From a virus, in IMG/VR virus record IMGVR_UViG_3300032285_003393, positions 1 to 64,000 of that record: a DNA stretch of 64,000 bases. The stretch is one strand, 5' to 3'. The notes beneath the pieces were generated by a model. That model was not told the DNA's origin and searched no databases. It worked only from the letters and a program-made list of their open reading frames with translations. A program made the position numbers and the translations under genes. This document shows positions 1 to 12,334 of this stretch, in pieces; the first letter of the stretch is position 1; every line of letters begins with the position of its first letter.

Positions 1-99
1 GCATTTTCTACACTAGAAAAGGCTCAAGCCTTTATCGCCAACAACGAGCATATAGCGGACATGCTTAGTGTGATTAGTATCACAGTAGATGAAGTCTAA
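1..99 (+). CDS. C-terminal fragment of unknown protein
   Basis: The window opens inside this gene. Thirty-two codons remain, ending ...VISITVDEV before TAA. No function can be read from so short a tail. A perfect TGTGA-N6-TCACA palindrome lies in the coding DNA at 69-84, 52.5 bp upstream of the next -10 box, so the gene end doubles as regulatory DNA. Confidence 0.6.
   Translation, partial: AFSTLEKAQAFIANNEHIADMLSVISITVDEV
69..84. promoter_or_regulatory. CRP/GlxR-like operator
   Basis: TGTGATTAGTATCACA, a perfect TGTGA-N6-TCACA palindrome. Its centre is 52.5 bp upstream of the -10 at 129, within a coding sequence. The match to the CRP/GlxR consensus is seen directly; binding is inferred. Confidence 0.7.
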
Positions 100-111
100 A
101 AACACCCCAAT

Positions 112-134
112 TTGTCAGTCCCCCATGCTATAAT
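112..134 (+). promoter_or_regulatory. TGTCAG-class promoter
   Basis: TTGTCA-N11-TATAAT with an extended -10 (TGCTATAAT). There is no -35 hexamer at the usual 17-bp spacing. It reads into the gene at 185. Confidence 0.8.
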
Positions 135-184
135 TCCATTATAAAGAAAATCAAGAAAGTTTCTTGATAAAGAAAGGACATAAA

Positions 185-346
185 ATGTCACTAGTAAAAA
201 ATATAGTAGATGAACTACTAGCCGAATTCTCATGGCTAGATATCTCAGACTTAACAGATGAGATGATAGAAAACGCTTTCTATTGTGAGATAGACGGGCA
301 TTGGTCTACAGAGATAGACGGCTCGCTATGGTGTAATTGCGATTAA
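185..346 (+). CDS. small acidic protein, unknown function
   Basis: A 53-residue acidic protein (MSLVKNIVDELLAEF...) with a predicted amphipathic N-terminal helix and a WCNCD C-terminus. The start is ATG at 185, eight bases after AGAAAGGA; an in-frame ATG at 164 has no such site. It is the only gene of its cassette before the unit starting at 444. I do not recognise the family. Confidence 0.7.
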   Translation: MSLVKNIVDELLAEFSWLDISDLTDEMIENAFYCEIDGHWSTEIDGSLWCNCD

Positions 347-443
347 AGTAATTACAATTAAAAATTAAATAAAAATCCTGTGAGCCTTAGAAATAAGCAA
401 ATAATCAGGTCAACAAAAACTAACAAAAAGAAAGGTCGTCAAA

Positions 444-536
444 ATGACACTTGAAGAATATAAAGAAATGGTAGAGGCTCAACGTAAAGCCAGCCTTGCC
501 ACCGCCCTATCCCTACTAACAAAAGAGGTTAAGTAA
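444..536 (+). CDS. 30-residue helical peptide, EYK..V..QRK family
   Basis: MTLEEYKEMVEAQRKASLA... is a short charged helix. It resembles the peptide at 2767 (LDEYKAYVTEQRKKSMAEA), so the window holds two paralogs. A ribosome site (AGAAAGG) precedes the ATG, and the stop TAA directly abuts the ATG of the next gene, suggesting translational coupling. Function unknown. Confidence 0.6.
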   Translation: MTLEEYKEMVEAQRKASLATALSLLTKEVK

Positions 537-731
537 ATGAAATTAGATTTTGAACAGACTTTTGAATTAAAGCAAATTTTTGATGAGGCACTAGACGAAT
601 CATGGGATAGTGTCACTATTGCGGGAATGACTTTTTTCCCGTCACAAATTCTACGAGAGTGCGACCCGATTGCTTATCGTGTTGCCTTAGCAGATTTTGA
701 ATCCGATTATTTAGAAAGTTTGGAGAATTAA
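537..731 (+). CDS. small acidic protein, unknown function
   Basis: A 64-residue acidic protein starting immediately after the stop of the upstream peptide gene, in an operon of four (444-958). It is rich in Glu, Asp and aromatic residues with one central Cys. No domain is recognised. Confidence 0.65.
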   Translation: MKLDFEQTFELKQIFDEALDESWDSVTIAGMTFFPSQILRECDPIAYRVALADFESDYLESLEN

Positions 732-735
732 ATAA

Positions 736-852
736 ATGGAAAAAACAATTCAAGAATTAGAAAATTTAATTATTTACTATGGTGGAGATCATAACGCAAT
801 AATAGCAATTAAACAATGTATTGAAATTATCAAAAAGAATAAAGGAGAATAA
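736..852 (+). CDS. 38-residue small protein, unknown
   Basis: MEKTIQELENLIIYYGG... is a predicted two-helix peptide ending KKNKGE. It lies four bases after the upstream stop. Its own 3' end (AAAGGAGAATAAATA) supplies the ribosome site of the next gene. Function unknown. Confidence 0.55.
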   Translation: MEKTIQELENLIIYYGGDHNAIIAIKQCIEIIKKNKGE

Positions 853-856
853 ATAA

Positions 857-958
857 ATGGAAAAAGATATTTTTGGTTTTGCTGATGCAATTCAAATTGA
901 TAACTTAAGCGATGAACAAATAAATATTTTAGAAAAAATATTTGAAGATTTTGAATAG
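857..958 (+). CDS. 33-residue acidic peptide, unknown
   Basis: MEKDIFGFADAIQID... is a small acidic peptide and the last gene of the 444-958 unit. The ribosome site AAAGGAG ends the preceding gene. A 10-bp AT-rich hairpin follows at 973-998. Confidence 0.55.
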   Translation: MEKDIFGFADAIQIDNLSDEQINILEKIFEDFE

Positions 959-972
959 CTGAGATCGGTAAG

Positions 973-998
973 TTTTTATGCATGAGAGTGCATAAAAA
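973..998 (+). terminator. AT-rich hairpin after operon 444-958
   Basis: TTTTTATGCA / TGCATAAAAA form a perfect 10-bp stem with a 6-nt loop, followed by TTTGC. It may be a terminator or an RNA end-stabiliser. Confidence 0.5.
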
Positions 999-1005
999 TT
1001 TGCTG

Positions 1006-1022
1006 CGCCCCGCACTCGGGCG
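1006..1022 (+). repeat. GCGCCC...GGGCG intergenic hairpin, copy 1
   Basis: A CGCCC/GGGCG stem inside the recurring string GCGCCCCG...CGGGCGTGTCG. It precedes a CRP-like site. Close copies lie at 1981, 2600, 3982 and 5603. Confidence 0.65.
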
Positions 1023-1034
1023 TGTCGCCTACGA

Positions 1035-1050
1035 TGTGGGCTAAATCACA
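1035..1050. promoter_or_regulatory. CRP/GlxR-like operator (one mismatch)
   Basis: TGTGGGCTAAATCACA has one mismatch to TGTGA-N6-TCACA. Its centre is 71.5 bp upstream of the -10 at 1114. Confidence 0.5.
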
Positions 1051-1090
1051 AAGCCCACGCTCCATATATTGAGACTACTGGCGAGTATAC

Positions 1091-1119
1091 TAGACAGTAG
1101 CGATTTTGTGTGTTATAAT
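1091..1119 (+). promoter_or_regulatory. sigma70-like promoter
   Basis: TAGACA-N17-TATAAT with an extended TGT before the -10. Unlike its neighbours it lacks the TGTCAG box. It drives the structured leader at 1151-1207. Confidence 0.65.
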
Positions 1120-1150
1120 TCCATTATAGAAAATTAAATAAGAAAAAAAA

Positions 1151-1207
1151 GTTAGTTAATCAACGGCGTGTCGCCTTGATTTTTGGCAGAAAGTCTGCTA
1201 AACTAAC
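1151..1207 (+). ncRNA. three-way-junction 5' leader (candidate cis-regulatory RNA)
   Basis: P1 pairs 1151-1157 with 1201-1207 (7 bp). P2 pairs 1158-1163 with 1176-1181 and 1165-1168 with 1172-1175, with one bulged C and a 3-nt loop. P3 pairs 1185-1190 with 1194-1199. All helices are consecutive and compatible. The leader is about 115 nt, much longer than the roughly 30 nt usual on this arm, and ends in AGAAAGG before the ATG at 1240. The fold is seen; a regulatory role is inferred. Confidence 0.5.
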
Positions 1208-1239
1208 GATAGTTAAACAATAAAGAAAGGTGGTCTCAA

Positions 1240-1431
1240 ATGACTACACTAAATAAAACAAATATCGGTCTTGCTCTTGGAATTTCAGGAGCATTAGAAA
1301 ATCGTATTCTTCACGATTGGAATAATGGTGGTGCTAAATCCACTTACGGCTTATCCGTATGGCAACGAAAAGTGTTGCTAAAAGTTCTTATTAGTGAAAA
1401 TCCTAAGTGTGAATGTGTGGTGTGTTTATAA
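1240..1431 (+). CDS. small protein behind the structured leader, unknown
   Basis: A 63-residue protein with a neutral N-terminus and a Cys-rich tail (CECVVCL) that could bind a metal. ATG at 1240 follows AAGAAAGGTGG. The stop overlaps the next start (TAATG), giving an operon 1240-1938. It is the only gene here behind a three-helix leader, so its expression may be specially controlled. No family recognised. Confidence 0.65.
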   Translation: MTTLNKTNIGLALGISGALENRILHDWNNGGAKSTYGLSVWQRKVLLKVLISENPKCECVVCL

Positions 1432-1637
1432 TGGCTACAATTAAAATTGGTGGATTAGGGCAAGAAATTTCTTGCTATTGCCCCGTGTGTTCCGTAAAAA
1501 TGTCCCATATGTGTATCGCTACACTAGGGACAGGAAAAACAATTCGCTATGAATGGCAATGTAATTCTTGCGAACTCTCTCTCAAATCAGATAGATTTGG
1601 AAATGCTAAATTGCTTAAAGAAATGGAAGTGCTATAA
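1431..1637 (+). CDS. zinc-ribbon-like small protein
   Basis: Sixty-eight residues from the ATG at 1431, which overlaps the upstream stop. CYCPVC and CNSC pairs about 30 residues apart suggest a zinc ribbon. An in-frame ATG at 1413 lies inside the preceding gene and is less likely. The stop overlaps the start at 1637. Function unknown. Confidence 0.65.
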   Translation: MATIKIGGLGQEISCYCPVCSVKMSHMCIATLGTGKTIRYEWQCNSCELSLKSDRFGNAKLLKEMEVL

Positions 1638-1831
1638 TGGCAACTATGACAGATAGATATATTCCCTCTTGGGAAAAAAAGTATGACCCTTGGGATTTAG
1701 AACCCGATACAACTTTAGATTTTGGCTATGATGAAGATGAAGAATCTGAAAATGCTAAAAATGAAGATGAACTATCTCTAGAAAATCTAGCAGATGAAGA
1801 ATTAGAATTAGAAGAGGATTTTGACCTATGA
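1637..1831 (+). CDS. very acidic small protein
   Basis: A 64-residue protein whose C-terminal half is mostly Glu and Asp. The N-terminus has YIPSWEKKYDPWDLEPD. Translationally coupled on both sides (TAATGG upstream, ATGA downstream). Such phage proteins sometimes mimic DNA, but nothing here proves that. Confidence 0.6.
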   Translation: MATMTDRYIPSWEKKYDPWDLEPDTTLDFGYDEDEESENAKNEDELSLENLADEELELEEDFDL

Positions 1832-1938
1832 CAATGAATAGACTAATAACATCACTAGTACAGTTAATGCTTTGGCTCCCGATTTTTTATTTTATAAAAT
1901 TAGAAATAAAAAGTAGAAAACAAAAAAACAAAAGCTAG
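1828..1938 (+). CDS. 36-residue single-pass membrane peptide
   Basis: Starts in a 4-bp ATGA overlap with the preceding gene. One hydrophobic segment (LVQLMLWLPIFYFI) is followed by a lysine-rich tail, giving a likely N-out, C-in topology by the positive-inside rule. Last gene of the 1240-1938 unit. Function unknown. Confidence 0.5.
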   Translation: MTMNRLITSLVQLMLWLPIFYFIKLEIKSRKQKNKS

Positions 1939-1980
1939 ATCGTGTAAAACAAAATGGTTGACATTTCAACTATTTTGCTG

Positions 1981-1995
1981 CGCCGTTGTCGGGCG
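1981..1995 (+). repeat. GC hairpin, diverged copy 2
   Basis: CGCC/GGCG stem in GCGCCGTTGTCGGGCGTGTCG, a diverged copy of the recurring intergenic hairpin, again just upstream of CRP-like sites. Confidence 0.55.
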
Positions 1996-2007
1996 TGTCG
2001 CCTACGA

Positions 2008-2023
2008 TGTGGCTTGAATCACA
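2008..2023. promoter_or_regulatory. CRP/GlxR-like operator, distal of a tandem pair
   Basis: TGTGGCTTGAATCACA, one mismatch. Its centre is 73.5 bp upstream of the -10 at 2089. It directly abuts a second site. Confidence 0.5.
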
Positions 2024-2039
2024 TGTGACTAATCTCACA
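2024..2039. promoter_or_regulatory. CRP/GlxR-like operator, proximal of a tandem pair
   Basis: TGTGACTAATCTCACA, a perfect TGTGA-N6-TCACA. Its centre is 57.5 bp upstream of the -10, the one site near a promoter that is out of the roughly 10-bp phase. Confidence 0.6.
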
Positions 2040-2071
2040 AAGTCCGAAATGTCCGATTTGTTACCACCAAT

Positions 2072-2094
2072 TTGTCAGACCCCCCTGCTATAAT
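2072..2094 (+). promoter_or_regulatory. TGTCAG-class promoter
   Basis: TTGTCA-N11-TATAAT with TGC before the -10 and a CCCCC spacer identical to the copies at 6265 and 7462. Drives 2125-2576. Confidence 0.8.
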
Positions 2095-2124
2095 GGTGGC
2101 ATATCAAAAAGAAAGGACAATAAA

Positions 2125-2445
2125 ATGTCATTAGAAATTTTTAGAATAAATGAAAATGGTGCTGGTTGGGTATCATTAGAAAATGCTACAATAGCAGAAA
2201 AATTAGAATTAGAATTAGCATTGGCGTTTAATGCTGAGATGAAAGTCTTGTGCGTTACTTGCCATATTGAAATTCCTGCTGGAACAGGAAATGCTTGTGC
2301 TAAGCATAGTTCATATCGTGTTTGCCAAATTTGCGAATTGCCTCACGATGGTTTGTATTGCTCAAATTGTTTTACTGGTGAACGAGTGCGAGTCGGTGCT
2401 CGTAAGTTTGCTAAAGTAATTCGCTTACAAGAAATTATAAAATGA
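2125..2445 (+). CDS. multi-zinc-finger-like protein
   Basis: A 106-residue protein. The first 45 residues are a charged helical region. The rest holds CVTC, CAKH, CQIC and CSNC, enough ligands for two zinc sites. The basic C-terminus (VRVGARKFAKVIRLQ) could contact nucleic acid. ATG at 2125 follows AAGAAAGGA. Specific function unknown. Confidence 0.7.
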   Translation: MSLEIFRINENGAGWVSLENATIAEKLELELALAFNAEMKVLCVTCHIEIPAGTGNACAKHSSYRVCQICELPHDGLYCSNCFTGERVRVGARKFAKVIRLQEIIK

Positions 2446-2459
2446 AAGGACTAACTAAA

Positions 2460-2576
2460 ATGGTTACTGAAAAAGTAAAACGAGTTCAAGAGTTGCGTCG
2501 TAGTAATGCAGCAACTGCAATTCCGTCAAAGAAAAAATATTCACGAAAAAGAAAATATAAAAATAAATTTGATTAG
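2460..2576 (+). CDS. 38-residue lysine/arginine-rich peptide
   Basis: A strongly basic peptide with tail KKKYSRKRKYKNKF, preceded by GAAAGGACTAACTAAA and cotranscribed with the gene upstream. The charge suggests nucleic-acid binding; this is inference. Confidence 0.5.
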   Translation: MVTEKVKRVQELRRSNAATAIPSKKKYSRKRKYKNKFD

Positions 2577-2599
2577 CTTGCAGATCGCAAAAAAAACTG

Positions 2600-2614
2600 C
2601 GCCCCGTTCGGGCG
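2600..2614 (+). repeat. GC hairpin, copy 3
   Basis: CGCCC-CGTTC-GGGCG stem-loop inside CTGCGCCCCGTTCGGGCG. It is the same sequence as copies 3982 and 5603. A lone DnaA-box-like TTATCCACA lies just downstream at 2629-2637. Confidence 0.7.
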
Positions 2615-2647
2615 TGTCGTACACAGGATTATCCACAGGGTTACGAA

Positions 2648-2663
2648 TGTGAGATTAATCACA
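2648..2663. promoter_or_regulatory. CRP/GlxR-like operator
   Basis: TGTGAGATTAATCACA, a perfect match. Its centre is 73.5 bp upstream of the -10 at 2729. Preceded by the recurring TTACGAA. Confidence 0.7.
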
Positions 2664-2711
2664 GCATTTGAGCGTCTCAAAATATGGAATTACTCGCTAG
2701 TAAGTAGAAAA

Positions 2712-2734
2712 ATGTCAGTGGGTTATGTTATACT
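2712..2734 (+). promoter_or_regulatory. TGTCAG-class promoter
   Basis: ATGTCA-N11-TATACT with TGT before the -10. Drives the gene at 2767. Confidence 0.75.
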
Positions 2735-2766
2735 TACGGCATAACGAAAAAGAAAGAAGGTCTTAA

Positions 2767-2886
2767 ATGAACCTAGATGAATATAAGGCGTATGTTACCG
2801 AACAACGCAAAAAGTCAATGGCGGAAGCAATGTCAGTGCTATCTGCTACAATTACAGACAATAAAGAAAAGGAAGGTGCTAACTAA
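2767..2886 (+). CDS. 39-residue peptide, paralog of 444-536
   Basis: MNLDEYKAYVTEQRKKSMAEA... matches the peptide at 444 in its first half. The ribosome site is AAAGAAGG. The codons for M-S-V-L-S-A-T-I at 2830-2853 are at the same time a complete TGTCAG-class promoter, so the second half of the peptide appears shaped by the promoter. The stop overlaps the ATG at 2886. Confidence 0.55.
   Translation: MNLDEYKAYVTEQRKKSMAEAMSVLSATITDNKEKEGAN
2830..2852 (+). promoter_or_regulatory. TGTCAG-class promoter inside coding sequence
   Basis: ATGTCA-N11-TACAAT with TGC before the -10, wholly inside the gene at 2767. Likely a second start for the operon 2886-3611. Confidence 0.65.
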
Positions 2887-3095
2887 TGGCAACTAAATTA
2901 TACACAATAGAGGATTTACTAATTGGTAAAACCTATCGTTCTCGTTCCCGATTTTTTGAGGGTGAAATTATCTCCGCTGAAAAGCGTGAAGGCGTTTGGT
3001 ATGGCGATAATACCGAAGCCTATCTAATCGGAATAAACTACAAGGGTAGTATCCGCACTAAGTATGCGACTATCGCAGTTAAGGTTGGTGAGTAA
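2886..3095 (+). CDS. 69-residue small protein, unknown
   Basis: Mixed alpha/beta composition with several aromatic residues (LYTIEDLLIGKTYRS). Preceded by AAAGGAAGGTG and coupled at both ends (TAATG). First of four genes 2886-3611. A small beta-barrel is conceivable. No family recognised. Confidence 0.65.
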   Translation: MATKLYTIEDLLIGKTYRSRSRFFEGEIISAEKREGVWYGDNTEAYLIGINYKGSIRTKYATIAVKVGE

Positions 3096-3259
3096 TGAAT
3101 ACAGCAAATGAAATTGTAGAAATACAAGGCGTGTGGTGCGATTCCTGCGATAGTGCAGGTTTCGTAATGCTACACGAAAATGGTGATACACAAGTCCTTG
3201 CGTGTAATTGCGAGGATAAAGAAAATGAATATTTATTTTTTGGAAAGGAAAACAACTAA
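3095..3259 (+). CDS. zinc-knuckle-like small protein
   Basis: A 54-residue protein with CDSC and CNC motifs about 25 residues apart, consistent with one zinc site. It starts in a TAATG overlap, and its end GGAAAGGAAAACAAC is the ribosome site for the next gene. Function unknown. Confidence 0.6.
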   Translation: MNTANEIVEIQGVWCDSCDSAGFVMLHENGDTQVLACNCEDKENEYLFFGKENN

Positions 3260-3417
3260 TGAAAAAAAATGTGTTGATTAGTTTTGTAACGGAAGCAGAT
3301 ACGGATTTAGAAGCCGTATTTAATCTTAATAAAATTCTGTATAAATTGTCAGATGAGGAATTATCTCAATTTAATGCGTTTGATGTAACTAATGTAGAGG
3401 GTGGGTATCTAGACTAA
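3259..3417 (+). CDS. 52-residue small protein, unknown
   Basis: A compact protein with a likely beta strand (KKNVLISFVTEA) followed by a charged helix. Coupled by TAATG at both ends. No family recognised. Confidence 0.6.
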   Translation: MKKNVLISFVTEADTDLEAVFNLNKILYKLSDEELSQFNAFDVTNVEGGYLD

Positions 3418-3611
3418 TGATGACTCGCAAAGACTACGTTGAAGTAGCACGAATTCTAAATACTTATATGAAACTAAATAATGACAATGAATATCCTGCA
3501 CTGGTAGATGAATTTGAAGTTCATTTAGTAGAACCATTCATTGAAATGTTTGAAAAAGATAATCCAAATTTTAATGCAGATAAATTTTGGGAAGCGTGTT
3601 TTAGCGAATAA
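3417..3611 (+). CDS. 64-residue helical acidic protein, unknown
   Basis: Begins with two ATGs (3417 and 3420); the first overlaps the upstream stop. Helical and acidic with several aromatics (FIEMFEKDNPNFNADKFWEA). Last gene of the 2886-3611 operon, followed by a terminator hairpin at 3619-3648. Confidence 0.6.
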   Translation: MMTRKDYVEVARILNTYMKLNNDNEYPALVDEFEVHLVEPFIEMFEKDNPNFNADKFWEACFSE

Positions 3612-3618
3612 AAAAAAG

Positions 3619-3648
3619 ATTTGCAGTTTGAAAAAGCTGCAAATTTTT
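3619..3648 (+). terminator. rho-independent terminator
   Basis: ATTTGCAG / CTGCAAAT stem (8 bp) followed by a T run. Confidence 0.7.
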
Positions 3649-3658
3649 GGCGCAGCGA

Positions 3659-3674
3659 TGTGATCTAGATCATG
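3659..3674. promoter_or_regulatory. CRP-like operator, distal
   Basis: TGTGATCTAGATCATG carries the core TGTGATCTAGATCA of the E. coli CRP consensus. Its centre is 74.5 bp upstream of the -10 at 3741. Confidence 0.65.
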
Positions 3675-3681
3675 TTACGAA

Positions 3682-3697
3682 TGTGATATTAATCACC
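3682..3697. promoter_or_regulatory. CRP-like operator, proximal
   Basis: TGTGATATTAATCACC, one mismatch at the last base. Its centre is 51.5 bp upstream of the -10 and 23 bp from the distal site, about two helical turns. Confidence 0.65.
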
Positions 3698-3723
3698 GAA
3701 AATAATCCCTAATTAACTTGATA

Positions 3724-3746
3724 ATGTCAGCAGGATATGTTATACT
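3724..3746 (+). promoter_or_regulatory. TGTCAG-class promoter
   Basis: ATGTCA-N11-TATACT. A -35-like TTGATA (3718-3723) directly abuts the box, 17 bp from the -10. Confidence 0.75.
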
Positions 3747-3775
3747 TCCATTATTCACCAAACGAAAGGGTCAAT

Positions 3776-3961
3776 ATGTCCACTCAAACAACACACGAAA
3801 TTGCTTGCGATTTATATGAAATCTGCGGTAGTACAATTCTAGTAGAATCTGATGAATTAGATTTCTATGATGGTTATATGTGCCCAGAATGCTATGACCA
3901 ATCTGAGGACTATATCTGGGATGATTCTTTCCCTATGTCTCTAGAGTATGATGAAGGGTGA
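3776..3961 (+). CDS. small zinc-binding-like acidic protein
   Basis: A 61-residue protein with Cys at two places (ACDLYEIC and MCPEC) and an acidic, Tyr-rich rest. ATG at 3776 follows AACGAAAGGG; an in-frame ATG at 3737 lies in the promoter and is rejected. The stop codon is part of a palindrome resembling a CRP site (3957-3972). Confidence 0.65.
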   Translation: MSTQTTHEIACDLYEICGSTILVESDELDFYDGYMCPECYDQSEDYIWDDSFPMSLEYDEG

Positions 3962-3972
3962 TATTTATCACA
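3957..3972. promoter_or_regulatory. CRP-like palindrome overlapping a stop codon
   Basis: GGTGATATTTATCACA within a longer palindrome of GGGTGA and TCACACCC. It may be a terminator stem for the gene ending at 3961 rather than an operator; its centre lies 110.5 bp from the next -10. Confidence 0.4.
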
Positions 3973-3981
3973 CCCGCCCTG

Positions 3982-3996
3982 CGCCCCGTTCGGGCG
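3982..3996 (+). repeat. GC hairpin, copy 4
   Basis: CGCCC-CGTTC-GGGCG, identical to copies 2600 and 5603, followed by TGTCGTTACGAA and a CRP-like site. Confidence 0.7.
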
Positions 3997-4008
3997 TGTC
4001 GTTACGAA

Positions 4009-4024
4009 TGTGAGATTTATCACT
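4009..4024. promoter_or_regulatory. CRP/GlxR-like operator
   Basis: TGTGAGATTTATCACT, one mismatch at the last base. Its centre is 51.5 bp upstream of the -10 at 4068. Confidence 0.65.
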
Positions 4025-4050
4025 GGAAAATAGGGGCTTTTGGATTGAAA

Positions 4051-4073
4051 ATGTCAGTGCAACCTGCTATAAT
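4051..4073 (+). promoter_or_regulatory. TGTCAG-class promoter
   Basis: ATGTCA-N11-TATAAT, TGC before the -10, with TTGAAA at 4045-4050 giving a full -35/N17/-10 geometry. Confidence 0.8.
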
Positions 4074-4102
4074 TCCCATATCACCAAACGAAAGGACAAC
4101 TT

Positions 4103-4252
4103 ATGTCATGCAATATTTGCTATGCTAATCTCATGGGTCTATCTATGATTGATTCCAACCCGTCTACTATGTGCGATACCCATTATTTTGAGTGGGCTCA
4201 GGAAAAAATCTATAATGATTTAGATATGTCTACTGAGGATATGTACCTCTAG
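4103..4252 (+). CDS. 49-residue small protein, unknown
   Basis: MSCNICYANLMGLSM... has CNIC near the start and one more Cys at position 25. ATG at 4103 follows AACGAAAGGA. It is a single-gene cassette between two TGTCAG promoters; the stop TAG lies two bases before the next promoter box. Function unknown. Confidence 0.6.
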   Translation: MSCNICYANLMGLSMIDSNPSTMCDTHYFEWAQEKIYNDLDMSTEDMYL

Positions 4253-4253
4253 T

Positions 4254-4276
4254 CTGTCAGTCCTATCTGCTATAAT
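4254..4276 (+). promoter_or_regulatory. TGTCAG-class promoter
   Basis: CTGTCA-N11-TATAAT with TGC before the -10. No CRP-like site is found upstream. Confidence 0.75.
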
Positions 4277-4306
4277 TACAACTCTCAACCCGAAAGAAGG
4301 AAAAAT

Positions 4307-4588
4307 ATGTCCGATATTGTAACCGCAATTAGAATTCAACAAGCAACTTCCGAAAGTCTACACGATGAAACAGTTATGGATACTGCTCGTGCCTTAATGC
4401 TAACATTAACAGGTAATGAAATGCCTAGCGATGAAGCAATTCACGCACTCTTTACTTATTCCGCATTACTTTCTGCTAATGTCGCAACTCGTATCACAAG
4501 TGTGTTGCTAACCGAAAGTCAATTTGATTCTATGTGTCAAGAAATTCAAGAATTTGATGATATGGAAAAGGGCGTGTTAGGTGACTAA
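4307..4588 (+). CDS. 93-residue helical protein, unknown
   Basis: A mainly alpha-helical acidic protein with no Cys except one near the end. ATG at 4307 follows CGAAAGAAGGA. It overlaps the next gene by 8 bp (GTGACTAA), so the two are probably coupled. Function unknown. Confidence 0.65.
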   Translation: MSDIVTAIRIQQATSESLHDETVMDTARALMLTLTGNEMPSDEAIHALFTYSALLSANVATRITSVLLTESQFDSMCQEIQEFDDMEKGVLGD

Positions 4589-5303
4589 ATTAAAACGCTC
4601 AAACGATAGAAAAGTGGCTAATGCCGTTTCGCCTAATGGTAAAACGGCTACCATTGCCAACACTTTCGGTCTGCCTGCAGGTAAAAATTATTCATGTCCT
4701 GGAGCCACTGCAACATGCGAAAGTGTGTGTTATGCAGGAAAACTAGAAAAATTATTCAAGGGTGTTAAGGCTAACCTCTTACACAATTGGGAATTACTTA
4801 AAGACGCAGACTATGAAACTATGGTTACACTACTTAATGAAATGATTATTGATTTCAAAAAGGATTGTGCTAAGAAAGACGCTCCATTGCTATTCCGCAT
4901 TCATTGGGACGGCGATTTCTTTAACGATACTTATTCATATGCATGGAAGCAAGTAATCATGGACAATTCCACCGTTCAATTTTGGGTTTATACTCGTGTT
5001 AAGTCTGCTGCATTAATGCTTAAGGATATCCCTAATCTTTCACTATATTATTCTACGGATGATGATAACGCAAATGTCGGGGCGGAATTAAAAACTCTTC
5101 ATGGAATACGCCTAGCATACCTAGGGAAGACATTCACCGCAACCGAAAGCAAGATGAAAGAATTAACTGGCAAGGTTGGTGCTAAGTGTCCTGAAAACAA
5201 TAAGCAAATTCCATTAATTTCACAAAACGGCTCCGCCTGCGTCTCGTGTGGTTTATGCGTGTACGGTAAAGCGGACATTAGATTTTCTGCGACTAAAAAA
5301 TAA
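4581..5303 (+). CDS. Gp88-family phage protein
   Basis: A 240-residue protein with the hallmarks of the mycobacteriophage gene-88 family: an N-terminal SCPGATATCESVCYAG cluster, an RIHWDGDFF motif and C-terminal CVSCGLC. The Cys clusters suggest a metal or Fe-S site; the family role is not established. The start is GTG in an 8-bp overlap with the upstream gene. Followed by a small gene 10 bp downstream. Confidence 0.75.
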   Translation: MTKLKRSNDRKVANAVSPNGKTATIANTFGLPAGKNYSCPGATATCESVCYAGKLEKLFKGVKANLLHNWELLKDADYETMVTLLNEMIIDFKKDCAKKDAPLLFRIHWDGDFFNDTYSYAWKQVIMDNSTVQFWVYTRVKSAALMLKDIPNLSLYYSTDDDNANVGAELKTLHGIRLAYLGKTFTATESKMKELTGKVGAKCPENNKQIPLISQNGSACVSCGLCVYGKADIRFSATKK

Positions 5304-5313
5304 AGGGGATGAA

Positions 5314-5517
5314 ATGCGAAAGATAAAAAACGGAAATATATTTACTGTCATGATTGCGGACCTACTGGACGTGACTGATGATGTAGCCTTGCGTGTACAC
5401 AATTACATAGATGAAAACTATAATTGTGATTGGTCTGAAGCTGATGAAGAAGAAATTAAATTTTATGCATTCATGGCATATGAAGATTTAAACGAAGAAG
5501 TTAATTCAAGCTTTTAG
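5314..5517 (+). CDS. 67-residue acidic protein, unknown
   Basis: ATG at 5314 follows AAAGGGGATGAA. Acidic C-terminal half; one Cys. Third gene of the 4307-5517 operon. A GC-rich hairpin at 5536-5563 ends the unit. Confidence 0.6.
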   Translation: MRKIKNGNIFTVMIADLLDVTDDVALRVHNYIDENYNCDWSEADEEEIKFYAFMAYEDLNEEVNSSF

Positions 5518-5535
5518 TGTGCGGGTGAGAGAGCG

Positions 5536-5563
5536 GGCCCAGGATCTGCAAAGGTCCTGGGCC
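5536..5563 (+). terminator. GC-rich hairpin after operon 4307-5517
   Basis: GGCCCAGGA / TCCTGGGCC, a 9-bp perfect stem with a 10-nt loop and no T run. Terminator or 3'-end stabiliser. Confidence 0.6.
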
Positions 5564-5602
5564 TGTATAAAATTTAATATGTGTGCATAAGTATGCAGGC
5601 TG

Positions 5603-5617: not shown

Positions 5618-5630
5618 TGTCGTTTACGAA

Positions 5631-5646: not shown

Positions 5647-5693
5647 GAACTTTTTGTCTTACGATATGGGATATACGGCGTGTCGGATTGAAA

Positions 5694-6855: not shown

Positions 6856-7129
6856 TTTTGCAACAGAATTAGCGGATAACGATTTATTCCCTGATTTAAC
6901 TATGGAAGATGCTATTGCAATACACTTGCAAGGTAATCACTATCCACCCGTCCCCCGTTCAATGGTAAAGCCTTGCATGGAAGCAATACAAAACTACAAC
7001 GAAGGGTATCACAACGAACCCGTAGAATTGCCCGAAGGCGTATCATGGCGTGGAGATACTATTGCTCCATCGTGGGCAATTATTGAATCACACCACTTAG
7101 AAGCTTGGCTAGACCAAGACGAATTCTAA
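6845..7129 (+). CDS. 94-residue acidic protein, unknown
   Basis: Starts within the end of the upstream gene with GGAGAAGTAA before the ATG. Pro- and Trp-containing acidic protein (FPDLTMEDAIAIHL). A palindrome at 7142-7167 follows and may end the transcript. Confidence 0.65.
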   Translation: MGSNFATELADNDLFPDLTMEDAIAIHLQGNHYPPVPRSMVKPCMEAIQNYNEGYHNEPVELPEGVSWRGDTIAPSWAIIESHHLEAWLDQDEF

Positions 7130-7141
7130 GATCAAGATTAG

Positions 7142-7167
7142 CTAAGTGTGACGAAGGTCACACTTAG
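7142..7167. promoter_or_regulatory. CRP/GlxR-like operator within an 11-bp stem
   Basis: TGTGACGAAGGTCACA (7147-7162) is a perfect TGTGA-N6-TCACA. Arms extend to 11 bp (CTAAGTGTGAC / GTCACACTTAG, loop GAAG). Its centre is 62.5 bp upstream of the -10 at 7217. It may be operator, terminator or both. Confidence 0.6.
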
Positions 7168-7199
7168 TTTATCTCAAATACTGAGATAGGGTTGGACAA

Positions 7200-7222
7200 A
7201 TGTCAGACCCAAATGCTATAAT
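7200..7222 (+). promoter_or_regulatory. TGTCAG-class promoter
   Basis: ATGTCA-N11-TATAAT with TGC before the -10 and TGGACA at 7193-7198 (N18 to the -10). Confidence 0.8.
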
Positions 7223-7269
7223 AAGACCCTAGTTAGCAAGTTGCTAATTATTTAATGAAAGGAAGCAAA

Positions 7270-7431
7270 ATGACCGCAAACGGAAAGACTTATCAAGTAG
7301 GGGATTTATTCACTACACAGAAGTCAAAGGTTACAGGAACTATCAAGGAGATTGTTCCGCAAGCATCTGGCTCGGTGCGTGTTAAACTTGAAGTTGATGG
7401 CGAAAATCGCTGGACTACTTTCAAGGCATAA
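7270..7431 (+). CDS. 53-residue VGDLFTT-family protein
   Basis: YQVGDLFTTQKSKVTGTIKEIVPQ is shared with the protein at 8043 (YQIGDLFTTSKTGVTGRIEKFVPQ), so the two are paralogs. Strand-rich pattern, probably a small SH3-like beta barrel (inference). ATG at 7270 follows ATGAAAGGAAG. Function unknown. Confidence 0.65.
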   Translation: MTANGKTYQVGDLFTTQKSKVTGTIKEIVPQASGSVRVKLEVDGENRWTTFKA

Positions 7432-7461
7432 CTAAATAGTTATTCAGGGCGGGTCTGATAA

Positions 7462-7484
7462 ATGTCAGACCCCCCTGCTATAAT
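7462..7484 (+). promoter_or_regulatory. TGTCAG-class promoter
   Basis: ATGTCA-N11-TATAAT with the CCCCC spacer and CTGATA upstream. Confidence 0.8.
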
Positions 7485-7524
7485 TACTCTCTCAAACAAA
7501 CCCAAACCCGAAAGAAGGAAATAA

Positions 7525-7941
7525 ATGTCAAGAGCAATTACAGTAAAGGTGGCAACACCAAAAGTAATCAAGGCTTTGGAAACAAAGTTGGAAACAATCA
7601 AGAAGTCTTATTCTGAGCAATCAGCAAATGAAGCAAAGTATCAAGAGGCTCGCACCGCTTGGGCAAAGGAAATTGGCAAGTGGGCTATGGAACACTTCTC
7701 AAAGGCTGAAAACATCAGAACAAATTATCGCAGTTGGAACAACACTCTCAATGTTGATTTTGACATCATCACTAAAGAAACTGACTTTCCTGTTGAGCCT
7801 GTAAAGGACTACGAGGAAATTGGTGGATACCAATACAAGGAAATAGTAGAGGAACTTACTAACGCCCTATCTATCCTTCGTATGACAGATGAGGAAACAG
7901 TAAATGCTTCTACAATGAAGCAGATTGCTAAGTATCTCTAA
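7525..7941 (+). CDS. 138-residue helical protein, unknown
   Basis: An N-terminal half of long charged helices (KALETKLETIKKSYSEQ), probably coiled coil, then a mixed middle and a helical C-terminus. ATG at 7525 after CGAAAGAAGGA. A GCCCC/GGGGC hairpin (7953-7969) follows. No family recognised. Confidence 0.65.
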   Translation: MSRAITVKVATPKVIKALETKLETIKKSYSEQSANEAKYQEARTAWAKEIGKWAMEHFSKAENIRTNYRSWNNTLNVDFDIITKETDFPVEPVKDYEEIGGYQYKEIVEELTNALSILRMTDEETVNASTMKQIAKYL

Positions 7942-7952
7942 GTTTCCTACAC

Positions 7953-7969
7953 GCCCCTAATGGTGGGGC
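7953..7969 (+). terminator. GC hairpin after 7525-7941
   Basis: GCCCC-TAATGGT-GGGGC stem-loop, no T run. Followed by a TGAGCA...TGCTCA hairpin at 7988-8010. Confidence 0.45.
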
Positions 7970-7987
7970 ATACAGGAATAAATGACC

Positions 7988-8010
7988 TGAGCAAGTCTAT
8001 AAACTGCTCA
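7988..8010 (+). repeat. TGAGCA-N11-TGCTCA hairpin, copy 1
   Basis: Six-bp inverted repeat with an 11-nt loop, preceded by ACC. Copies at 8265-8287 and 9594-9615 keep the same geometry and all follow genes. Confidence 0.55.
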
Positions 8011-8042
8011 CACACAAAACCCGAAAGAATAGGAAAATATAA

Positions 8043-8210
8043 ATGACACTAGGCGGATACACTTACCAAATCGGTGATTTATTCACAACAAGCAAGACAG
8101 GCGTTACAGGCAGAATTGAAAAGTTTGTGCCACAATCTAAAAATGTAACTCGTGTTATGTTGCGTTTGGCAAATAACCAAACACGATTTGCAATGGTAAA
8201 AACATACTAG
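8043..8210 (+). CDS. 55-residue VGDLFTT-family protein, paralog
   Basis: Paralog of the protein at 7270 (about half of the residues identical in the first 30). ATG at 8043 after CGAAAGAATAGGA. No TGTCAG promoter precedes it, so it probably depends on read-through from 7462. Confidence 0.6.
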   Translation: MTLGGYTYQIGDLFTTSKTGVTGRIEKFVPQSKNVTRVMLRLANNQTRFAMVKTY

Positions 8211-8264
8211 AATTGCAAGAACCAAAAAATTGGATTTAATCCAAAATCTTGGTAGCAATAATCC

Positions 8265-8287
8265 TGAGCATGATTCAAAACTGCTCA
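8265..8287 (+). repeat. TGAGCA-N11-TGCTCA hairpin, copy 2
   Basis: Same inverted repeat and loop length as at 7988, here after the gene 8043-8210. Confidence 0.55.
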
Positions 8288-8297
8288 AGCTTTAAAT

Positions 8298-8313
8298 CCC
8301 CGCAAATGCGGGG
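8298..8313 (+). repeat. GC hairpin, variant
   Basis: CCCCGC-AAAT-GCGGGG stem followed by GCAG; GGGGCGCAG is the reverse complement of the start of the other GC hairpins. It again sits just upstream of a CRP-like site. Confidence 0.55.
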
Positions 8314-8320
8314 CGCAGCC

Positions 8321-8336
8321 TGTGATCTAAATCACC
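8321..8336. promoter_or_regulatory. CRP/GlxR-like operator
   Basis: TGTGATCTAAATCACC, one mismatch. Its centre is 42.5 bp upstream of the -10 at 8371, the closest of the phased set. Confidence 0.6.
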
Positions 8337-8346
8337 TTACGAAGGG

Positions 8347-8376
8347 TTGACAAAGCCCCTGAGTTTACGATATACT
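8347..8376 (+). promoter_or_regulatory. sigma70-like promoter, near-leaderless
   Basis: TTGACA-N18-TATACT. The ATG at 8385 lies eight bases after the -10, predicting an almost leaderless mRNA. Confidence 0.7.
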
Positions 8377-8384
8377 GGAAGGCT

Positions 8385-8483
8385 ATGGAGACCCTACTTA
8401 TCGTGCCAATTGTGATTTTACTCACACCACCTCTAACCCTGCTTGGGTTATACTTATTTATTAAAACTATCCGTCTCAAATAG
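8385..8483 (+). CDS. 32-residue single-pass membrane peptide
   Basis: METLLIVPIVILLTPPLT... is hydrophobic through residue 24 with a central Pro-Pro, then a basic tail (KTIRLK). It has its own consensus promoter and no ribosome site, as expected for a leaderless gene. A perfect TGTGA-N6-TCACA lies inside the coding sequence at 8411. Possible roles (superinfection exclusion, envelope signalling) are speculation. Confidence 0.55.
   Translation: METLLIVPIVILLTPPLTLLGLYLFIKTIRLK
8411..8426. promoter_or_regulatory. CRP-like palindrome inside a coding sequence
   Basis: TGTGATTTTACTCACA, perfect match. Its centre is 98.5 bp from the -10 at 8517, which is out of the phase seen elsewhere; it may repress the peptide gene or be chance. 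Confidence 0.4.
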
Positions 8484-8499
8484 TGGACGGACTGGACAA

Positions 8500-8522
8500 A
8501 TGTCAGTGCAATCTGTTATACT
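8500..8522 (+). promoter_or_regulatory. TGTCAG-class promoter
   Basis: ATGTCA-N11-TATACT, TGT before the -10, TGGACA at 8493-8498. Confidence 0.8.
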
Positions 8523-8551
8523 TAGCCTTAATCTAATAGAAAGAAGGAAAT

Positions 8552-9583
8552 ATGTCAAATCTAGCACATGCTCGTGAAATTGAAGATAACTCAGTTTCAT
8601 TCGCATTCGTTGATTCCCGCTCCAATCCCGCTTGGCACTCTGCTGCTAATAAAGTTTGGAATTCTGATGAAGAGACTCCTACAATTTCACAAATTATGGA
8701 TTCTGCTCATCTATCTAATTGGAATTTGCGTTTGGAAGATGTCGCACCAGCGTTTCCAAATCATAATTTCATCTCTAATTCTCACCTTGTTGTTCGTGAT
8801 AATCCTTTCAATGCTGGAGAAACTGATGTTCTCTCTGTTGTAGGTTCACGCTATAAGGTCGTGCAGAATGAAGAATTGTTTGCGTTTGCACAAAATCTTC
8901 ATGATTCTAACCCTGATGTCAAAATTGACTCGGCTGGTTCTTTCAAGAATGGTCGTGTTGTGTTTGGTACATGGACAGTTCCAAATACTTTGATTCTTGA
9001 CCCTAATGGTGCTAATGACCAAACCAATCTATACCTAGTTGTTTATACTAGCCATGATGGTTCGGTTGCTGTTCAGGCTGCAATTACACCTGTTCGTGTT
9101 CGTTGCCAAAACACTCTAAACTTTGCAATGTCTCGTGCTAAGCAAAGTTTCAAGATTCGCCATACCGCTACGGCAGAAGGTAAAATTGCCTCTGCTCGTG
9201 AGGCTCTTGGTTTATCTGTTGCATACTTTGACGAGTTCTCAAAGCAGGCTAACGAGTTATTTACTCGTGAAGTTACTAATGCTGAGTTCTCTAAGATTAT
9301 CAACACACTCTATCCTAAGCCTGAATTGGATAAAAAGGGTTCTCTAACTAAATGGGAAAATAAAGTTGTATTGCTTGATGAGTTGTACCATAACTCACCT
9401 ACCAATGCAAATATCAAGGGTACTGCATGGGGCGTTGTAAATGCTCTAACCGAACGCCTTGATTATTTCCGCACTGCTCGCAAGGGTGGAGAATCACTTA
9501 CTTATTCTGCAAGTGGTTTTGACCCTGTGATTACCGCAGAAAAAAATAAAATTGTTAAGCAAGTGTTAGCACTTACCGCTTAA
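8552..9583 (+). CDS. DUF932-family protein
   Basis: A 343-residue protein resembling the DUF932 phage/plasmid family: an N-terminal region with VVGSRYKVVQNEELFAFA and a conserved VRCQNTLNFAM segment around residue 190. The family is common on phages and plasmids but its biochemical role is not established. ATG at 8552 follows AGAAAGAAGGA. Largest gene of the rightward arm. Confidence 0.8.
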   Translation: MSNLAHAREIEDNSVSFAFVDSRSNPAWHSAANKVWNSDEETPTISQIMDSAHLSNWNLRLEDVAPAFPNHNFISNSHLVVRDNPFNAGETDVLSVVGSRYKVVQNEELFAFAQNLHDSNPDVKIDSAGSFKNGRVVFGTWTVPNTLILDPNGANDQTNLYLVVYTSHDGSVAVQAAITPVRVRCQNTLNFAMSRAKQSFKIRHTATAEGKIASAREALGLSVAYFDEFSKQANELFTREVTNAEFSKIINTLYPKPELDKKGSLTKWENKVVLLDELYHNSPTNANIKGTAWGVVNALTERLDYFRTARKGGESLTYSASGFDPVITAEKNKIVKQVLALTA

Positions 9584-9593
9584 TAATAATTCC

Positions 9594-9615
9594 TGAGCAT
9601 GAATTAAAACTGCTC
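9594..9615 (+). repeat. TGAGCA-N11-TGCTC hairpin, copy 3
   Basis: Third copy of the inverted repeat, between the DUF932 gene and tRNA-Asp. Confidence 0.55.
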
Positions 9616-9620
9616 CGCAT

Positions 9621-9692
9621 GGAATCGTAGTTCAATGGTTAGAATGCAGGCTTGTCACGCCTGAGACGAGAGTTCAATTCTCTTCGGTTCCG
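9621..9692 (+). tRNA. tRNA-Asp (GUC)
   Basis: A full cloverleaf: acceptor GGAATCG/CGGTTCC, D-loop with GG, anticodon loop TTGTCAC, T arm with TTCAATT. No CCA is encoded. The only tRNA on the rightward arm. Its 3' half is overlapped by the antisense HNH gene. Confidence 0.92.
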
Positions 9693-10020
9693 CTTTATTT
9701 TTATCCCATTGTTTTATGTTATTGCAATTGGCACATAAAATTTGATAACCATTTGGCAAATCTTGTTTAATTAAATATCTGTAAAATTTTACACCTGAAA
9801 ATTTTTGACCACCTAATTCTTTTCTTTCTTGTGATCCATTGTCTTCTATGTGATCAAGCTGCAAAGCTCTTATATCGTCAAAACCACATATAGCACACTC
9901 TTTGCCATAACGTTCTAGAATGATTTGCTTATCTTGCATTCTTCTAGCTGTTGTATCTGCTCTTAGCTTCTCCCGATTTTTTTCACGATATCTTGCTTGA
10001 GCTTCTTTTTTATTATTCAT
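9655..10020 (-). CDS. HNH endonuclease (antisense, tRNA-associated)
   Basis: A 121-residue HNH protein: basic N-terminal helix, then CAICG ... LQLDHIEDNG ... YQILCANCNNIK, the classic Cys-pair HNH core, and a short basic tail. It opposes all neighbouring genes and its last 38 bases lie in tRNA-Asp. TACAAT-N6-ATG predicts a leaderless mRNA. Free-standing HNH genes of this type usually behave as homing elements; a similar gene sits in the tRNA array at 27875. Confidence 0.85.
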   Translation of the reverse strand: MNNKKEAQARYREKNREKLRADTTARRMQDKQIILERYGKECAICGFDDIRALQLDHIEDNGSQERKELGGQKFSGVKFYRYLIKQDLPNGYQILCANCNNIKQWDKNKAEPKRIELSSQA

Positions 10021-10072
10021 ATATAAATTGTATCACTGGGGTGCAACAATGCATAAATAAACGGGGCGCAGA

Positions 10073-10088
10073 TATGATCAATATCACA
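10073..10088. promoter_or_regulatory. CRP/GlxR-like operator (one mismatch)
   Basis: TATGATCAATATCACA. Its centre is 74.5 bp upstream of the -10 at 10155. A GGGGCGCAG hairpin-arm remnant precedes it at 10063-10071. Confidence 0.5.
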
Positions 10089-10137
10089 ATTACGATAGGG
10101 GTATATTTCCCCTGAAATTGGAATTACGATTGGACAA

Positions 10138-10160
10138 ATGTCAGTCGGGCATGCTATAAT
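10138..10160 (+). promoter_or_regulatory. TGTCAG-class promoter
   Basis: ATGTCA-N11-TATAAT, TGC before the -10, TGGACA at 10131-10136. Confidence 0.8.
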
Positions 10161-10198
10161 TTACCCATATTATCCCTACCACTAGAAAGTAATCATAT

Positions 10199-10624
10199 AT
10201 GTCTAATAGAACTAAAGGTTATATGGGCCAAATTGTAGATGGCAAGAAGCTTGCTGAATTGGCCAATAAAATATATTCAATTCAATATAATGATAATGCC
10301 ACTAAATGCACAGTAGATAATTTGTTATTTATTGAATTAAATGAAAAGAACGTATTTGGGGATTCTAAGTATGCTCTTGTATGTTCTGAAGGTGTAGGTT
10401 GGGAACAAGATGAATATGGATGTCTTGAAGTCCCCACAAATGTTGGACAAATGGGTTTATGGAATGGGCATGTATTTATTTCAGTAGATGTCGTAAAGTC
10501 TTGTTTAACTGATCAATATGAAGATATCTCTGACTATATTCGTGTCTTTGGTTCCCGCCTTGATTCTAATTGTTGGTTGTGGCAGAACAAAATGTCAGTG
10601 GCATCTGCTACAATATCCCTCTAA
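10199..10624 (+). CDS. 141-residue protein, unknown
   Basis: A mixed alpha/beta protein with several Cys. Ribosome site AGAAAGTAATC before the ATG at 10199. The last ten residues (MSVASATISL) are encoded by the next TGTCAG promoter. No family recognised. Confidence 0.65.
   Translation: MSNRTKGYMGQIVDGKKLAELANKIYSIQYNDNATKCTVDNLLFIELNEKNVFGDSKYALVCSEGVGWEQDEYGCLEVPTNVGQMGLWNGHVFISVDVVKSCLTDQYEDISDYIRVFGSRLDSNCWLWQNKMSVASATISL
10592..10614 (+). promoter_or_regulatory. TGTCAG-class promoter inside coding sequence
   Basis: ATGTCA-N11-TACAAT at the 3' end of the gene at 10199. Drives 10642. Confidence 0.7.
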
Positions 10625-10641
10625 TAACGAAAGGATATAAA

Positions 10642-11427
10642 ATGCCAAATTGGGTATATAATACCTTGACAATTCAAGGTCCAAAAGATGAAATAGATAT
10701 GATTAAAGATAGACTGAATAAGCCTTTTACATTAGCACAAGAGACTTATGGTATGGGTGATATTAGTTCTATGGGTTTCCCCACCAAAATTAAAGAAGTA
10801 ACTTATTCTAATCCTGTCTTTGCTTTCTTCAACATTCATTCATATAAAGATGACGGCATTACTGATGAGGAATATGCCTGCCAGCCAACACGTTCAGGTG
10901 CAGACATGAAAGACCCTAATTGGTTTGCACAAGAGGTAGCACATGCCAAGACACAGAAGGATTGGTATTCTTGGAACAATTCTAATTGGGGAACCAAATG
11001 GGATGTTGCTGTTTCAGATGATGACAAATATCCAAATACAGAATTGCTTGAATATAAATCAGAAGGTGATGACAACTGGGTTGTATATAAATATGAAACT
11101 GCTTGGTCGCCTGCCGTAACTGTTTTAACTAAACTAAGTAATCTTGTTCCTAATTGTGTGCTTACTTTAGAGTTTGAAGAAGAAACAGGTTGGGGTGGGG
11201 AATATGAGATTGTTCGTGGTAATGTAACAGAATTAGTTGAATATGATAATCAATGCAGAGATTGTGATTCATATAATACATTAGATTACTGCGAAAATGA
11301 ATGTGGTGAAATCTGTAGTAACTGCAATTGGCTTGGCGAGGCAGACCTAGAAGCAGTGGCAGAATGTCAGACCCATAGTGTATACTTGGACACCAAAGTC
11401 CCTGAATATAGAAAGTTGGAAGCATGA
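10642..11427 (+). CDS. Api92-like / DUF1281-like protein
   Basis: A 261-residue protein. MPNWVYNTLTIQG is the typical start of Api92-like phage proteins with a ferredoxin-like fold, followed by an AWSPAVTVLTKLS segment seen in that group. The C-terminal 50 residues carry a Cys cluster (CRDCDSYNTLDYCENEC ... CSNC), a likely zinc ribbon. ATG at 10642 after AACGAAAGGA. Ends with an ATGA overlap into the next gene. Confidence 0.7.
   Translation: MPNWVYNTLTIQGPKDEIDMIKDRLNKPFTLAQETYGMGDISSMGFPTKIKEVTYSNPVFAFFNIHSYKDDGITDEEYACQPTRSGADMKDPNWFAQEVAHAKTQKDWYSWNNSNWGTKWDVAVSDDDKYPNTELLEYKSEGDDNWVVYKYETAWSPAVTVLTKLSNLVPNCVLTLEFEEETGWGGEYEIVRGNVTELVEYDNQCRDCDSYNTLDYCENECGEICSNCNWLGEADLEAVAECQTHSVYLDTKVPEYRKLEA
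11364..11386 (+). promoter_or_regulatory. TGTCAG-class promoter inside coding sequence
   Basis: ATGTCA-N11-TATACT near the 3' end of 10642-11427. The next ATG is at 11424. Confidence 0.6.
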
Positions 11428-11705
11428 TAGAGCAAGCAAGTAAGTTGCCTGATAATGTCCAGCGTCTTGTAGACGCTGGTGTTAAAGGTATTGATGTAAT
11501 GCATGGTCAATTAAAGATTGATATGCTAGAAGCAGAAATTGAATATACTAAGTCTGTAGAGATTGAAGAGGAAAATGATTATTCTGACGCAATGGAATCT
11601 ATGGATAGAAAGTATAATGAAGGCTTTCTAGACGCTTTGACATATTGCTATAAATTGACATATGACATTTCATTTGCTGAATCTATAAAGGAAGCGGGGG
11701 AATAA
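11424..11705 (+). CDS. 93-residue helical acidic protein, unknown
   Basis: ATGA overlap with the upstream gene; GAAAGTTGGAAGC serves as ribosome site. Acidic, mainly helical, with two Tyr-rich stretches near the C-terminus. Function unknown. Confidence 0.6.
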   Translation: MIEQASKLPDNVQRLVDAGVKGIDVMHGQLKIDMLEAEIEYTKSVEIEEENDYSDAMESMDRKYNEGFLDALTYCYKLTYDISFAESIKEAGE

Positions 11706-12334
11706 TGGATCTGCTAAGCTGGACTAAATATACATATGTATGTGACCCTGATGAATGTGATTCTCTAATTGAGTATACATGTTCAGATAAGTTTGGATTC
11801 CCGTCTGGAAGTGTGACTAACATCACATGCCCGTGTGGTCGGAAACCCAACCTTTTGTCAGTGGAAGATGCTACAATTACACCTATTAACCAACCCGAAC
11901 AGAAAGAAGAAAAAATGGAAACAATGTACAACTCAATCCAGCAGGAACTTGACTTGACTAACGGTAACGAAATTACTGAACTCAAGAATAAGTTGTCTGC
12001 ATCAGAAAATCTAGTAGAGAGATATCGTGATATGGTTTCAAGTGCTAATTCGCAACTTGGAAAAATCATTGATAATCTTACAGAAGATTATTGGTATTCA
12101 TCATCAGTTGATAAGTCTGAGATTTTAACTGAACTCTGCGACATCCTTGAACATAATCCAGTTAAAGAGATTTCTTTCACTGCGACTATTTCCTTTAATG
12201 GTCGTCTAGAGATTCCATTGGATGAGGCAGAAGACTTTGACCTTACCGCCGTCCTTGAAGATGCTTATGTAGATATCAACAACGGCAATGTCGTTATTGA
12301 TGGCTATGAACTCTATGATGCAGAGGAGTGCTAA
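11705..12334 (+). CDS. two-part protein with an internal promoter and start
   Basis: A 209-residue frame. Residues 1-55 hold CDPDEC, CSD and CPCG and look like a zinc ribbon. A CRP-like site (11812-11827), a TGTCAG promoter (11855-11877) and an AGAAAGAAGA ribosome site then lead to ATG at 11915, inside the frame. The downstream 139-residue part (METMYNSIQQELDL...) is helical, then beta-rich, and is probably also made alone. Function unknown. Confidence 0.65.
   Translation: MDLLSWTKYTYVCDPDECDSLIEYTCSDKFGFPSGSVTNITCPCGRKPNLLSVEDATITPINQPEQKEEKMETMYNSIQQELDLTNGNEITELKNKLSASENLVERYRDMVSSANSQLGKIIDNLTEDYWYSSSVDKSEILTELCDILEHNPVKEISFTATISFNGRLEIPLDEAEDFDLTAVLEDAYVDINNGNVVIDGYELYDAEEC
11812..11827. 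promoter_or_regulatory. CRP/GlxR-like operator inside coding sequence
   Basis: TGTGACTAACATCACA, perfect match. Its centre is 52.5 bp upstream of the -10 at 11872, the same spacing as at 69-84. Confidence 0.65.
11855..11877 (+). promoter_or_regulatory. TGTCAG-class promoter inside coding sequence
   Basis: TTGTCA-N11-TACAAT, TGC before the -10, about 38 bp before the internal ATG at 11915. Confidence 0.7.

Follow-up and report, generated by a model that had tools for sequence, protein, structure and literature searches.

Helically phased CRP/GlxR-like sites in one arm of a phage genome suggest that early phage genes may be driven by a cAMP-type master regulator of the host

Why should one arm of a phage genome be crowded with TGTGA-N6-TCACA palindromes, and which protein would read them? 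The question arises from a window of 64,000 nucleotides, the whole stretch of DNA analyzed here (positions 1 to 64,000 of the IMG/VR record IMGVR_UViG_3300032285_003393). A previous sequence-only reading had listed 15 such sites in its rightward arm, most of them at helical-phase distances from promoters, and had proposed that host CRP tunes the early genes. When the window was re-scanned, all 15 sites were found again at the same positions. The sites and the core promoters are given below, with distances from the center of the palindrome to the minus-10.

69–84: CRP-like site TGTGATTAGTATCACA, 52.5 bp to the minus-10 at 129; copy at 101649
113–134, plus strand: core promoter TGTCAG-N7-TGCTATAAT
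1035–1050: CRP-like site, one mismatch, 71.5 bp to the minus-10 TATAAT at 1114; promoter without TGTCAG
2008–2039: tandem abutting CRP-like sites, 73.5 bp (in phase, one mismatch) and 57.5 bp (perfect, half a turn out)
2073–2094, plus strand: core promoter TGTCAG-N7-TGCTATAAT
2648–2663: perfect CRP-like site, 73.5 bp to the minus-10 at 2729
2713–2734, plus strand: core promoter TGTCAG-N7-TGTTATACT
3659–3697: pair of CRP-like sites, 3659 (two mismatches, 74.5 bp) and 3682 (one mismatch, 51.5 bp); minus-10 at 3741, minus-35 TTGATA
3957–4024: pair of CRP-like sites, 3957 (103.5 bp) and 4009 (51.5 bp); minus-10 at 4068, minus-35 TTGAAA
4052–4073, plus strand: core promoter TGTCAG-N7-TGCTATAAT
4255–4276, plus strand: core promoter without CRP site or minus-35
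5631–5646: CRP-like site, one mismatch, 72.5 bp to the minus-10 at 5711; minus-35 TTGAAA
7147–7162: perfect CRP-like site, 62.5 bp to the minus-10 at 7217
8321–8336: CRP-like site, one mismatch, 42.5 bp to TATACT at 8371; TTGACA 18 bp upstream, without TGTCAG
8411–8426: perfect CRP-like site, 98.5 bp to the minus-10 at 8517, out of phase
10073–10088: CRP-like site, one mismatch, 74.5 bp to the minus-10 at 10155
11812–11827: perfect CRP-like site, 52.5 bp to the minus-10 TACAAT at 11872
2831, 6266, 6593, 7463, 10593, 11365 and 12676: starts of further core promoters without CRP site or minus-35
100425 and 101420: far-end CRP-like sites, 72.5 and 62.5 bp to the minus-10, respectively

A chance origin of the sites was rejected by dinucleotide shuffling. 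With at most one mismatch, 14 TGTGA-N6-TCACA sites fall within 1–12 kb against 0.47 expected, the maximum in 300 shuffles of that region being four, and just three are present between 12 and 100 kb of the record. When two mismatches are allowed, as in the site at 3659, the whole window gives no excess over chance (39 found, 39 expected). The claim that the sites are limited to the rightward arm stands as an enrichment in one arm of a 101.7-kb genome that is otherwise almost without them. The far-end sites at 100425 and 101420 extend this arm, and the one at 101649 is the terminal-repeat copy of the site at 69; since the source virus record (101,703 bp) carries a 123-bp terminal repeat, the arm extends across the genome ends, from roughly 100.4 kb to roughly 12.7 kb.

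The spacing of the sites is equally regular. The center-to-minus-10 distances reported before were reproduced, except that the site at 3957 lies 103.5 bp, and not 110.5 bp, from its minus-10 (4068), and the helical phasing drawn from them is borne out, the distances grouping at 42.5, 52, 62.5, and 73 bp. In this phage alone, 15 distances below 75 bp gave R = 0.79 (with 72.5 in place of 71.5 for the site at 1035), and 0 of 20,000 random sets were as strong. In relatives, 28 sites from 10 regions picked without regard to spacing gave R = 0.85 at 10.4–10.5 bp (p ~1e-9), and among the matches listed, 115 sites in 255 non-redundant promoters, after removal of promoters that resemble one another in the 75 bp preceding the core, gave R = 0.67 at 10.4 bp (p ~5e-23). 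The pooled loci, again among the matches listed, peak at 42.5, 52.5, 62.5, and 72.5–73.5 bp, with a minor peak at 83.5 bp; they were found via the motif, which biases the N6 and half-site enrichment counts, not the positions within each scanned range. The IMG/VR scan, complete for gaps 0–19, found 58 site-plus-promoter stretches, 57 of them at 40.5–43.5 bp, and the unit is present in at least 120 stretches with gaps 20–50 and at least 119 with gaps 51–81. Off-phase sites (57.5, 58.5, 89.5 bp) mostly have an in-phase partner 16–17 or 25 bp away, as is seen for the site at 2024 (57.5 bp), which adjoins the in-phase site at 2008; still off-phase are the 98.5-bp site of this phage and solitary sites at 57.5, 64.5, or 87.5 bp in relatives. 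At minus-10s that lack TGTCAG the phase is present but weaker (26 cases, p ~0.004), which makes it more likely that the sites are set relative to the polymerase than to the TGTCAG element. In the tandem sites 16 bp apart (2008–2039, and in relatives) one site is in phase and the other half a turn out, the latter often being the better match; a possible role of such abutting sites is that of an occupancy switch.

One may ask if this regularity is an accident of a single promoter cassette copied within or between phages. Some promoters are clearly related, and one gene family keeps 52.5 bp in 31 of 31 members, but copying predicts one spacing and not five in series, and the phase survives when promoters with similar 75-bp stretches upstream of the core are left out. 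Between homologous downstream genes of different phages the differences in distance peak at 0–1, 10–11, 20, and 30–31 bp. That related genes keep the phase while the distance shifts by whole turns points to selection on the helical face, and we consider the copying of a cassette very improbable.

The site-plus-promoter unit was found in 29 large records, 27 of which have a DnaE 52–85% identical to that of the phage; perfect sites are present in all 29 and the reversed pattern in none. Among 40 records chosen by DnaE only, mostly fragments, 11 contain a perfect site. The phased CRP-site system, present in dozens of relatives of this freshwater phage, is widespread in this phage group, not universal. 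The DNA polymerase and capsid protease of the phage are nearest to those of Streptomyces phages of the Stanwilliamsviridae (BillNye, EGole, and others; DnaE 54–56%, capsid protease about 40% identical), and the genome contains a whiB-type gene.

22977–23150, minus strand: WhiB domain (PF02467), E = 4e-10

WhiB was used as a marker of actinobacterial hosts in studies of freshwater phages (PMC6802176, PMC10202952). It scores above the cut-off in 9 of 12 phage records, and among 14 control genomes the single match is Corynebacterium glutamicum. Since the phage encodes WhiB, its host would be an actinobacterium, and the phage GC content of 36% makes a low-GC host such as the freshwater 'Ca. Nanopelagicales' plausible. 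The sole match in a scan of genome contigs for the host was a phage-like contig, L207 (CAINGU010000031.1), in a MAG with a cyanobacterial name; the presence there of a contig of this phage group is likely a binning error, and, given WhiB and the kinship with actinophages, the match was not counted toward a host assignment. The minus strand of the window also contains a small protein with a weak match to a proteasome subunit (21399–21935, E = 1e-5) and a sugar-nucleotide/glycosyltransferase cluster (36711–40783) with epimerases and three glycosyltransferase-2 matches.

What protein recognizes the palindromes? The symmetric consensus of the sites, TGTGAtnTAnaTCACA, with T/A adjoining the half-sites, matches that of CRP/GlxR. 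A Rex operator (TGTGAA...TTCACA) was rejected, A following TGTGA in 7% of half-sites. Perfect sites occur only at N6 (69 promoters, against none at N2–N5 or N7–N10), and permuted half-sites are found in at most 3 of 255 promoters compared with 109 of 255 for the real motif, both counts coming from loci partly chosen by the motif. TGTGA-N4-TCACA with one mismatch is present in 23 promoters. The absence of a CRP homolog, noted earlier for the window, was confirmed more broadly, as the CRP DNA-binding domain was not found in 28 phage records nor the cNMP domain in 21, and a phage-encoded CRP was rejected as the binder. Given the CRP/GlxR consensus and no recognizable phage CRP, host CRP is the best candidate. 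A phage-encoded protein without the CRP fold, activator or repressor, might bind the palindromes instead: the sites are a common phage feature, for many of the small early proteins no family is assigned, and the 97 kb searched of the relative BillNye (53% GC) contain neither a core promoter nor a perfect site. This is unlikely in our view; the consensus matches CRP in both arms and the center, the searches of phage records for CRP-type DNA-binding and cNMP domains weigh on the same side, and some DnaE relatives are without sites, so the sites are not fixed by descent. Among the open-access papers listed, we found no prior report of CRP-site arrays in phages.

The candidate sites for host CRP distinguish two classes of promoters. 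The core TGTCAG-N7-TGnTATAAT is present in 20 copies on the plus strand of the arm (113–12700, and 100489 and 101474 of the record), its seven-base gap being constant in 17 of 17 strict matches. The minus-35 score is 3.65 of 6 in CRP promoters vs. 2.49 in CRP-less ones (p = 1e-10); the former have a TTGAAA/TTGATA-like minus-35 at about 17 bp, and none was seen in the latter. Overlap with coding sequence does not explain the absent minus-35, for the contrast holds inside and outside ORFs. Because they have a minus-35, the CRP promoters look built for host sigma-A polymerase together with CRP upon DNA entry, and would thus fire early. Promoters with only the common core probably depend on another factor and would come on later. 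Sigma region 4 gave no match above the cut-off among 12 phage records, and no precedent for a TGTCAG promoter was found among the open-access titles listed. Middle promoters of phage T4 consist of a MotA box plus a minus-10. They likewise combine a fixed sequence with an extended minus-10 a short set distance below it, a minus-35 frequently being absent, and the MotA box differs in sequence from TGTCAG. In many relatives, a repeated TGTCCGA/T-TTT element lies 40–48 bp before the minus-10, between the CRP site and the promoter. The nonamer GGCGTGTCG, also present in relatives, recurs in the arm at 1019, 1165, 1992, 2611, 3993, 5614, and 5677, and at three of its copies adjoins the hairpin-like GCCCCGTTCGGGC.

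The likely explanation is that host CRP/GlxR activates the early rightward promoters from one face of the helix, which suggests that early phage genes may be driven by a cAMP-type master regulator of the host. In this concept the sites would be operators for CRP/GlxR, the bound protein would touch host RNA polymerase from one side of the DNA, and five successive turns would be usable, with the site center 42.5, 52.5, 62.5, 73, or 83.5 bp upstream of the minus-10. The sequence case consists of the sites, their phase, their conservation, their association with a minus-35, and the lack of a recognizable phage CRP; the transcription starts are predicted ones. Host CRP might also bind and repress or delay the early promoters, a precedent being coliphage T1, in which cAMP-CRP is reported to act in this way on pir (PMC6737242); the phase is close to non-activating positions of E. 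coli, and several tandem pairs have the better site out of phase. We regard this as quite unlikely, since the sites, 42–84 bp ahead of the minus-10, do not overlap polymerase and are mostly one per promoter, and a phase kept over five turns is needless for repression unless a loop forms. Moreover, the data on CRP of Mycobacterium tuberculosis fit a protein that activates when bound upstream and represses when bound close to the start (PMC4117774).

Activation by host CRP invites comparison with E. coli class I (lac type) promoters, to which the sequence-only reading had appealed. There, too, TGTGA-N6-TCACA stands upstream of the minus-35 and minus-10 at successive helical turns, activation peaking at -61.5, -71.5/-72.5, and about -82.5 (PMC6301791). 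The phage sites share the location upstream of the minus-35 with helical phase, as positional phase only; the E. coli phase itself did not hold, since, with the minus-35 as reference, the phage sites are displaced upstream by about 4 bp (PMC6301791, Table 1), which is over a third of a turn from the E. coli optimum. Rescaled to the phage, the best E. coli position is 48.5 and the null positions are 53.5 and 63.5, whereas the phage peaks, taken from predicted promoters, are 52.5 and 62.5. The phage sites are thus near positions where E. coli CRP activates little or not, and the 42.5 class has no counterpart in that data set (PMC6301791). Given this offset, the bound protein probably touches RNA polymerase in another way than in E. 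coli, and a different contact is plausible because, according to one study, only the E. coli clade of CRPs has the E. coli class I contact surface (PMC12531629). The regulons of M. tuberculosis CRP and C. glutamicum GlxR have the consensus and the host phylum in common with the phage sites. M. tuberculosis CRP sites are concentrated between -60 and -40 and between +1 and +20, and the consulted portion of that report describes no helical series (PMC4117774), unlike the phage sites.

It is quite possible, as a tentative model, that actinobacterial CRP works by phase-locked upstream activation through a polymerase contact unlike that of E. coli class I, and that a widespread group of freshwater actinophages has built its early transcription around it, so that the cAMP/energy state of the host would gate infection. 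The phage promoters give strong natural evidence, drawn purely from sequence, for a CRP-type regulator that depends on helical phase in actinobacteria, a group in which the contact surface known from E. coli is reportedly missing (PMC12531629), and the phage set offers a ready-made series of spacing variants. They also point to a phage group whose earliest genes would be wired to the global metabolic regulator of the host, which would tie infection to nutrient state in freshwater bacteria. In coliphage T1, phage transcription is likewise under host cAMP-CRP, which represses pir and also dam and recE (PMC6737242). Compared with T1, the genome described here has about 13 promoters linked to CRP-like sites; these sites are phased and conserved in many phages, and they probably serve activation.
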